NCBI RefSeq assembly: GCF_902801725.1
Contig: NZ_CADCJB010000002.1
Location: 1 to 64,000 of the forward strand
Origin: an uncultured Methanobrevibacter sp.
GTDB lineage: Archaea > Methanobacteriota > Methanobacteria > Methanobacteriales > Methanobacteriaceae
Length of the DNA: 64,000 nt
Direction of reading: 5' to 3'
The position numbers were made by a program, and so were the translations under genes. The notes beneath the pieces are model-generated. The model saw nothing but the letters and a program-made list of their open reading frames with translations. It ran no database searches and was not told where the DNA came from. Positions 47,150 through 51,698 of the stretch are shown in pieces. Position 1 is the stretch's first letter. The number at the start of each line of letters is the position of its first letter.

Positions 47150-47332
47150 ATGATAAACGATTCAAATATTGCACAGTACAATTGCAGAAAGCATATCACG
47201 GACCCTGATGCAATCAGGCTATTAAGGGAATTTGAAAACAGCCCATACACTCCAACGGGTAAGGAGATTATGTATAATTTCTACAAAAGCGTGGGAATGG
47301 ATGTTGACTATGACGAAATTTTCTCTGATTAA
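47150..47332 (+). CDS. small soluble protein of unknown function
   Basis: 60 aa beginning MINDSNIAQYNCRKHITDPD and ending SVGMDVDYDEIFSD. No membrane segment or known motif. Its codon pattern is coding-like, and it lies alone on the plus strand between two minus-strand adhesin genes, with a weak GTGAG site before it. It may be a real small protein of the island. Confidence 0.55.
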   Translation: MINDSNIAQYNCRKHITDPDAIRLLREFENSPYTPTGKEIMYNFYKSVGMDVDYDEIFSD

Positions 47333-50629: not shown

Positions 50630-50675
50630 GCTTTTTCCCTCACAATTATCTTTTTGATTTTGATTTATATAATGC

Positions 50676-50772
50676 TATGCATCATAATGCATAATTACTA
50701 TATAAATAGTTATGTAGTATAATACATAATCAGTATATAAATAGCTATGTAGTGTAATACATAATATATAAT
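50676..50772 (-). promoter_or_regulatory. triple promoter/operator array of the ATPase gene
   Basis: Three 18-bp palindromes at 50676-50693 (tatgcat-N4-atgcata), 50711-50728 (tatgta-N6-tacata) and 50746-50763 (tatgta-N6-tacata) are spaced exactly 35 bp. On the minus strand TATA boxes (TTTATATA) lie at about 50699-50706 and 50734-50741, with a weaker one near 50764-50772. Each is placed so that transcription would start within the next palindrome. The 35-bp unit is an imperfect direct repeat (50696-50730 and 50731-50765). Confidence 0.75.
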
Positions 50773-50945: not shown

Positions 50946-50969
50946 AAAAAGTTCTAAATGTTAAAAAAA
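50946..50969 (-). terminator. T-rich terminator of the micro-ORF unit
   Basis: On the minus strand the runs GTTTTTTTAAC (50963-50969) and CTTTTTTTAAT (50944-50950) follow shortly after micro-ORF c, the usual archaeal T-rich stop signal. Confidence 0.5.
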
Positions 50970-50979
50970 CAGTCAATAG

Positions 50980-51051
50980 TTACATGTCTGCCTGCCTGGC
51001 TATCTTTTCATGCCAAACAGGCAGCATTCGCGTGTCACTTTCAATTCGCAT
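50980..51051 (-). CDS. micro-ORF c, 23 aa
   Basis: Reads MRIESDTRMLPVWHEKIARQ then ADM. GGGGGTGA lies five bases before the ATG, as strong as any ribosome site in the window. No known family. The same DNA can form a hairpin (50990-51022), so it may instead be part of a structured RNA. Confidence 0.4.
   Translation of the reverse strand: MRIESDTRMLPVWHEKIARQADM
50990..51022 (-). ncRNA. stable hairpin, possible structured RNA element
   Basis: GCCTGTTTGGC and GCCAGGCAGGC pair over 11 positions (two G-U) around an 11-base loop in the minus-strand transcript. It is GC-rich in an AT-rich setting and is followed by T-runs about 30 bases later. It could be a small RNA, a terminator-like element, or a chance feature of micro-ORF c. 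Confidence 0.35.
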
Positions 51052-51095
51052 AATTTTCACCCCCAATGATAATCGTTTGCGAATGAATATTCTTC

Positions 51096-51146
51096 TTAAT
51101 ATATCCTAATATCAGGAATCATTTCAAGGATGTCGTCAATATCCAT
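51096..51146 (-). CDS. micro-ORF b, 16 aa
   Basis: Reads MDIDDILEMIPDIRIY. A perfect GGAGGTGA lies four bases before the ATG. Acidic, with alternating hydrophobic residues. It is located 44 bases upstream of micro-ORF c in the same direction. No known family. Confidence 0.4.
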   Translation of the reverse strand: MDIDDILEMIPDIRIY

Positions 51147-51189
51147 GTTTTCACCTCCAATCAGTTTACAGTTCAACAGCATTAATTGC

Positions 51190-51225
51190 CTAATGAATTA
51201 AATCTATAGTCCGGTGGTCAATCAT
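51190..51225 (-). CDS. micro-ORF a, 11 aa (28 aa from an upstream GTG)
   Basis: Reads MIDHRTIDLIH from ATG 51225 after AAGGTGA. The frame is open back to GTG 51276, close to the expected transcript start, giving a 28-residue version. First of three micro-ORFs behind one promoter. Confidence 0.35.
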   Translation of the reverse strand: MIDHRTIDLIH

Positions 51226-51294
51226 AATAGTCACCTTGATTACTTTCTGGTTGGTGTTGTTTTTCACTTTCAACACATTAGACCTATTAATTAG

Positions 51295-51345
51295 TTTATA
51301 TAAGGCCATATAAATAGTTTTGCGAATGTAAGTGCTCACTTACAT
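51295..51345. promoter_or_regulatory. divergent TATA boxes and a 20-bp perfect palindrome
   Basis: TTATATAAA on the minus strand (51295-51303) should start the micro-ORF transcript near 51275. catataaata on the plus strand (51307-51316) should start transcription about 51337, inside the palindrome atgtaagtgctcacttacat (51326-51345). The palindrome resembles sites of dimeric repressors such as the TetR family; no such gene is near. Confidence 0.6.
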
Positions 51346-51383: not shown

Positions 51384-51698
51384 GAAGACATAATTACAAA
51401 AATGCAAACCGAACAAAGAATATGCTTAATCCTAGATAATTATAGTGTCCACAAGTCTGCATTTATCAAAAAAATAGCCCTGTACCTCAATATTGAACTA
51501 ATATATCTTCCACCATACTCTCCTCACTTAAATCCAATCGAACAGATATGGAGACAAATAAAAATAGAAATAAAACATTATTATCTTGAATCAAAAGAAT
51601 TTCTGCAAGAACTAACTACAGAAACGTATAACAAATCGATTTCAGGAACCAAAGTTTATGACAAATGGCTCGAAACATTTATACCAAAAGTTTGGTAA
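51384..51698 (+). pseudogene. IS630-type transposase, C-terminal stub
   Basis: About the last 100 residues of a DDE transposase (full length about 340). The second Asp and the Glu of the triad are kept (LILDNYSVHKS, then PPYSPHLNPIEQIWRQIKIE), while the first Asp and the helix-turn-helix are missing. The frame is closed upstream by a stop at 51378-51380. Inactive remnant; no terminal inverted repeats found. Confidence 0.85.

Follow-up and report, generated by a model that had tools for sequence, protein, structure and literature searches.

Does a short minus-strand unit in a 64,000-nucleotide stretch of DNA from an uncultured Methanobrevibacter sp. encode peptides, or is it a small RNA gene? 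We refer to the whole stretch (contig NZ_CADCJB010000002.1, positions 1 to 64,000) as the window; the source genome is about 2.16 Mb. An earlier note, made from the letters of the window alone, had described the unit as self-contained, with three very small open reading frames (ORFs), each behind a strong ribosome site, and had offered two accounts of it: signaling or toxin-like peptides controlled with a neighboring ATPase or a small RNA whose hairpin overlaps the last frame. We found all the described elements, and the reading as one transcription unit stands, with operator, TATA box, cistrons, hairpin, and T-runs on the minus strand. We also found that the peptide and RNA-structure accounts are both true, for different parts of the unit. 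Judging from its relatives, the window copy is predicted to encode two peptides, with the third frame belonging only to a 3' RNA module. The explanation that we favor, and consider probable, is an operon under operator control that encodes leaderless amphipathic peptides with a membrane or extracellular site of action. The features of the unit are as follows (SD, Shine-Dalgarno sequence; BRE, B recognition element).

51326-51345, minus strand: palindromic operator ATGTAAGTGAGCACTTACAT, with 9-bp arms and a 2-bp center, adjoining the TATA box
51308-51317, minus strand: core TATA CTATTTATAT with an upstream AT-rich, BRE-like stretch, kept in all aligned relatives
51295-51303, minus strand: TATA-like TTATATAAA, less conserved than the core TATA
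51249-51284, minus strand: stem-loop of the 5' leader, with a weak fold in the window copy and a strong one in relatives
51190-51225, minus strand: micro-ORF1, MIDHRTIDLIH, with SD AAGGTGA at 51231-51237
51171-51177, minus strand: short, conserved leader element GTTGAAC, preceding the first cistron of the array and shared with arrays of unrelated peptides
51096-51146, minus strand: micro-ORF2, MDIDDILEMIPDIRIY, with SD GGAGGTGA at 51151-51158
51044-51084, minus strand: start of the 3' module by layout comparison, an ATTCGCA/TGCGAAT stem whose loop holds an SD (51057-51064)
50980-51051, minus strand: "ORF3," MRIESDTRMLPVWHEKIARQADM, with SD GGGGGTGA; an open frame not conserved as a gene
50990-51025, minus strand: GC hairpin of the 3' module, conserved, with both-sided changes
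50970-50960 and 50951-50941, minus strand: two T-runs, from their sequence a probable site of transcription termination; a T-run is kept in relatives

The earlier note had held that such signals are unlikely to arise by chance. This does not apply to the signals taken singly, as short ORFs with an SD and an ATG number 14 in the window versus a mean of 18 per 64 kb of Markov-1 sequence. It does apply to their grouping: the three frames are spaced by 43 and 44 nt, as had been described, and three such ORFs on one strand within 220 nt occurred in 0 cases in 640 kb of simulated sequence. The clustering is not a product of chance. The comparative evidence for the unit is much stronger than this statistic.

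We compared 67 genomes of the genus, the source genome and 66 others. Counting changes on minimum spanning trees for six variable peptide families, we found 61 synonymous and 75 nonsynonymous changes, where 26 synonymous changes were expected (P = 8e-12). Changes fell at the three codon positions 35, 29, and 72 times, and the nonsynonymous/synonymous ratio was 0.31 in frame versus 0.77 and 1.06 when the frame was shifted. The synonymous excess was seen for the ORF1 family, which has five intact relatives. We also compared helix amphipathicity with that of shuffled versions of each peptide and found that 7 of 16 family representatives reached P < 0.05, compared with 7% of control ORFs. The combined statistic was 96.4 versus 33.6 +/- 8.4 for control ORFs, and none of 2000 control sets exceeded 67.6. 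Because of the frame-specific codon selection and the amphipathic excess over controls, we read window ORF1 and ORF2 as probable peptide genes. That units of this kind encode peptides is well supported by these comparisons. A remnant of one long gene was rejected, since relatives keep the stops, ribosome sites, and frames.

The units share a constant frame around peptides that vary between species. Their layout is a 5' stem-loop, one to six cistrons mostly of 5 to 36 codons with a strong ribosome site each, a GC hairpin, and a T-run. Relatives of the whole window unit are present at L004-L008, L058, and L101. In these, ORF1 reads MID[HKY]WTRDL[IT]H; it is intact in five and decayed in two paralogues, L058 and L101. 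After it come, in most units, either one to three copies of MTFEEAVEEIWRYNGLI or MGFLDWFDIDR, then in some units the ORF2 relative MVNIDVSDIMDFIPDFRCF or something similar, and then the hairpin module; the ORF2-type cassette is the last before that module in L004, L006, and L101. Unrelated peptides occur under the same promoter, with GTTGAAC and the same or a similar 3' module: MAPTGCFSKLFKKIASLFN and its variants, in up to six tandem copies per unit, and MSCLEETIKVLKEFESF, MGWTYRDACSNICSVIYIC, and MGWLLYWFTCFFIP. The predicted micropeptides also include MLFLGDMGMFFQKFDDFIADLYF and a duplicated MGDIFDFDFVNI with its own, different hairpin. The shortest cistrons have 5 to 7 codons (MYFIR, MYLIG, and MRIPFIK). 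Methanobrevibacter ruminantium M1, whose genome has 2,937,203 bp (PMC2812497), carries a one-peptide unit at about 834,004-834,370, which we detected through its promoter; its hairpin is CCTGTTTAGA/TCTAAACAGG.

Two further observations concern the arrays. A micro-ORF LNRWWDPV..Y.YY is common to two genomes, G004 and G005 (L072 and L073); in G005, its frame is interrupted after a T run, either by true decay or by an assembly error. In G013, the assembly seems broken inside an array of identical micro-ORF repeats, between the end of contig C38 and the start of C39, and draft genomes therefore probably show arrays as shorter than they are.

The third frame is a different matter. A ribosome site lies 5' of the hairpin in 11 of 11 aligned units (the window and ten relatives), and the ORF3 start is CTG in all ten relatives and ATG in the window only. 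In several relatives, the frame meets a stop before or within the hairpin, and its changes are spread evenly over the codon positions (9, 6, and 8; 3 of 23 synonymous). We therefore rejected ORF3 as a third peptide gene and read it as part of the RNA module. The hairpin itself covaries: both-sided changes that keep the pairing occur at 7 of 12 consensus pairs. Of the three frames that the earlier note had described, two are kept as probable peptide genes, and its hairpin is real. The alignments that it had proposed as a check gave codon conservation in the first two micro-ORF families as well as base-pair covariation in the hairpin. A covariance model, R1, built from eleven sequences including the window, had 13 matches in 8 of the 67 genomes, eleven of them training sequences. 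Twelve of the 13 lie behind the operator promoter, and the other lies at a contig end inside an array. The model missed the M. ruminantium M1 unit, and in other genera it gave only weak, chance-like matches, in two. The stem layout ATTCGCA/TGCGAAT is identical in L004, L006, L036, and L101 and partially conserved in others. We judged the 5' leaders by single-sequence folds with shuffles (a MAFFT alignment misplaced the stem partners) and found that they fold better than shuffles, with a mean z of -2.7 over 14 units but only weakly in the window copy, whose z is -0.7. An Rfam search found only a tRNA elsewhere in the window and nothing near threshold at the micro-ORF region, so a known RNA family with a match above its gathering score was rejected there.

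The 20-bp palindrome ATGTAAGTGAGCACTTACAT had been missed by the earlier note, which had placed the TATA box at 51303; a TATA box is present, but its conserved core is CTATTTATAT at 51317-51308 and not TTATATAAA. A degenerate operator-promoter pattern, allowed up to 3 mismatches, matched 47 of the 67 genomes, often at several sites each, while the same pattern reversed, as a control, had 0 matches in them. At up to 2 mismatches, it was found in only 2 of 16 other genera of the family. Records with this promoter bear the name Methanobrevibacter, and many come from ruminants. A phage origin was rejected, as 2.9 million viral contigs contain no exact match to the pattern. We read 209 distinct operator sites. 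Ninety-nine lead to proteins with a hydrophobic N terminus, many with LPATGNP...RRK-like wall-sorting tails. Micro-ORF units follow 28 sites by automatic classing and about 30 with a few more added by eye; the 12 single-ORF sites may include some chance ORFs. The remaining sites precede other proteins or no recognizable frame.

Among the operator targets, an uncharacterized 266-residue protein (MLGLN...GVNDKYTIPGGG, with a DUF2207_C match) recurs at L208, L107, L114, L137, L228, and others, and an uncharacterized 161-residue secreted protein ends in ...FNKNNNVKAIAF at L116, L130, and L212. At L202 (G051:C69, 30-700 and beyond), a single 7-kb contig carries six operator-promoters, of which the first three are spaced at about 280 bp. 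These sites are mostly without an ORF and carry repeated TGATGAACCG/GCCGG-type segments; it is possible that they are small RNA units in the same regulon.

Computation thus supports the operator regulon, the layout, selection at the peptide level, the covarying hairpin, and the amphipathic bias. According to the model that we favor, a DNA-binding regulator would act on the 20-bp palindrome beside the TATA box and switch on a short mRNA with a 5' stem-loop, one to several micro-cistrons, and a 3' hairpin/terminator module. Each micro-cistron has a strong ribosome site to itself, and the products would be leaderless peptides of 5 to 36 residues, many of them amphipathic helices. Transcription, translation, export, and a membrane or signaling role of the peptides are inferred. 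Because secreted and cell wall proteins are driven by the same operator, the most likely site of peptide action is the membrane or the outside of the cell, with a membrane-active or signaling role; the amphipathic shape of the peptides and an exporter beside some arrays also favor this. We offer one extension of the model only tentatively: that modular cassettes, held in a constant frame of operator, 5' stem, and 3' hairpin and switched together with cell wall proteins, would encode secreted membrane-active or signaling peptides for competition or communication, a system with no known archaeal counterpart.

Several findings weigh against the model. Peptide charge ranges from -4 to +5 across families, some peptides are nonamphipathic (MGFLDWFDIDR and MGDIFDFDFVNI), and some have only 5 to 7 residues, so a single common activity is not assured. 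Among 20 loci, most arrays lack an adjacent exporter, protease, or immunity gene. The families in the codon test were gathered by sequence pattern and are thus somewhat biased toward conserved residues; the frame contrast is the safer part of that test. Finally, window ORF1 has the conserved W and R replaced.

This last point bears on whether the window copy is a dead remnant of a real family, which we regard as quite possible and which is compatible with the peptide-operon model for the family. The copy lacks the middle cassettes seen in relatives, keeping ORF1 and the last cassette, its 5' stem is weak, its promoter core carries one change, and a truncated transposase adjoins it directly upstream of the operon promoter:

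51402-51698, plus strand: IS630 family transposase, C-terminal fragment (DDE_3)

Against decay, the copy retains an intact operator, TATA box, and 3' hairpin, with intact SDs and frames for ORF1 and ORF2, and the hairpin scores 101 bits with model R1, which the window helped to build. The copy may be still working or decaying.

For the family as a whole, we considered three other explanations, all less likely than a peptide operon. The first, which we consider unlikely, is a regulatory RNA whose active part would be the 3' module with its looped SD, the micro-ORFs serving as ribosome-loading sites that control RNA folding or stability. The conserved 5' stem-loop and conserved, covarying 3' hairpin fit this, as do the SD kept before the 3' module without an ATG and the operator sites without a recognizable ORF, including the tandem units at L202. 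However, frame-specific selection at the amino acid level and repeated identical cassettes would be needless if translation alone mattered, and the hairpin resembles an ordinary terminator.

The second, which we find improbable, is that the units are selfish or stress elements resembling type I toxin-antitoxin loci, with small hydrophobic or amphipathic membrane peptides restrained by antisense RNA or RNA structure. Type I toxins (Ibs/Sib, Ldr, and Fst) are very short membrane-active peptides from duplicated loci, and the size and membrane affinity of the peptides here, the duplicated copies, the patchy distribution, and the decay of some copies are in keeping with this. Those toxins, however, are single-cistron genes with antisense RNAs, whereas the units here are polycistronic arrays under one operator-controlled promoter shared with surface proteins, and no antisense gene was identified, antisense promoters not having been specifically searched.

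The third, that the micro-ORFs are leader peptides of an attenuator for a gene located downstream, for instance the ATPase, is very doubtful: strong-SD short ORFs before a GC hairpin and T-run resemble one, and DUF4143 ATPases lie near operator sites above expectation, but the peptides in tandem copies are under selection, the downstream genes differ among the 20 variable neighborhoods and are often convergent or on the opposite strand, and the window ATPase has TATA-linked repeats of its own.

By layout, the closest analogues of the putative peptide operon are phenol-soluble modulin operons and multipeptide leaderless bacteriocins. Staphylococcal phenol-soluble modulin operons (e.g., psm-alpha 1-4) encode tandem short leaderless amphipathic peptides with their own ribosome sites and are stand-alone and regulated. 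The units here are like them in their tandem cistrons and, as a group if not for every peptide, in their short leaderless amphipathic products. In contrast, the host here is an archaeon, the peptides go down to 5 residues and are often acidic, a palindromic operator lies beside an archaeal TATA box, and a candidate dedicated exporter adjoins the array only in G053 and G064. Multipeptide leaderless bacteriocins of the aureocin A70 and enterocin DD14 type have about 30 residues or more, are cationic, and have export and immunity genes alongside. Several tandem leaderless peptides are a shared trait, and an ABC exporter pair adjoins the array in two genomes, whereas the arrays here are mostly stand-alone and include many acidic peptides. 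We do not claim membership in either group, because we tested for a sequence relation and for adjacent immunity and export genes and did not generally find them. For peptides of at least 20 residues, Pfam and NCBIfam gave no match up to E = 1, whether to phenol-soluble modulin and bacteriocin families or to any other; shorter ones are below the limit of these tools.

The earlier note knew of no system with this layout, and there was no match in Rfam, Pfam, or NCBIfam. We found no description of the micro-ORF family among open-licence papers, and it may be described elsewhere. The layout and family appear to be undescribed, while the activity of the peptides may belong to a known type. Provided that the peptides are produced, archaea possess tandem micro-cistron operons, in which some cistrons have only 5 to 7 codons and which standard gene callers discard. 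An operator shared by peptides and cell surface proteins would point to an unknown regulator and to a possible way for methanogens to compete, signal, or respond at the envelope. Methanobrevibacter is the genus dominating the hydrogen-using methanogens of the rumen, and the unit in the culturable M. ruminantium M1 makes these proposals directly testable.

Downstream of the window unit lie the ATPase gene and its repeats.

50629-49190, minus strand: DUF4143 ATPase gene
50666-50770, minus strand: three 35-bp direct repeats upstream of the ATPase gene, each a palindrome (ATGTAKTA..TACAT type) followed by TATA-like TATTTATATA

The repeats are probably a different operator array that controls the ATPase gene. 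The earlier note had suggested that the peptides are controlled with this ATPase. The peptides gained support from codon selection, but a shared transcript did not, as the hairpin, the T-runs, about 300 bp, and the TATA-like repeats intervene. A looser link is possible, because 5 of 64 operator sites have a DUF4143 ATPase within 2 kb, versus 0.75 expected (P = 0.001, post hoc).

Elsewhere, cationic MAPTG arrays in G053 and G064, and only in these two, adjoin a two-gene ABC exporter and a CPBP (Rce1-like) protease. The protease was rejected as a general partner, as, of the three genomes that have MAPTG arrays, just these two carry a close orthologue. Near the array, both in the window (47150-47332, plus strand) and at L004 (444-626, plus strand), there is a 60-residue protein of unknown family, whose differing relative orientation in the two suggests an inversion.
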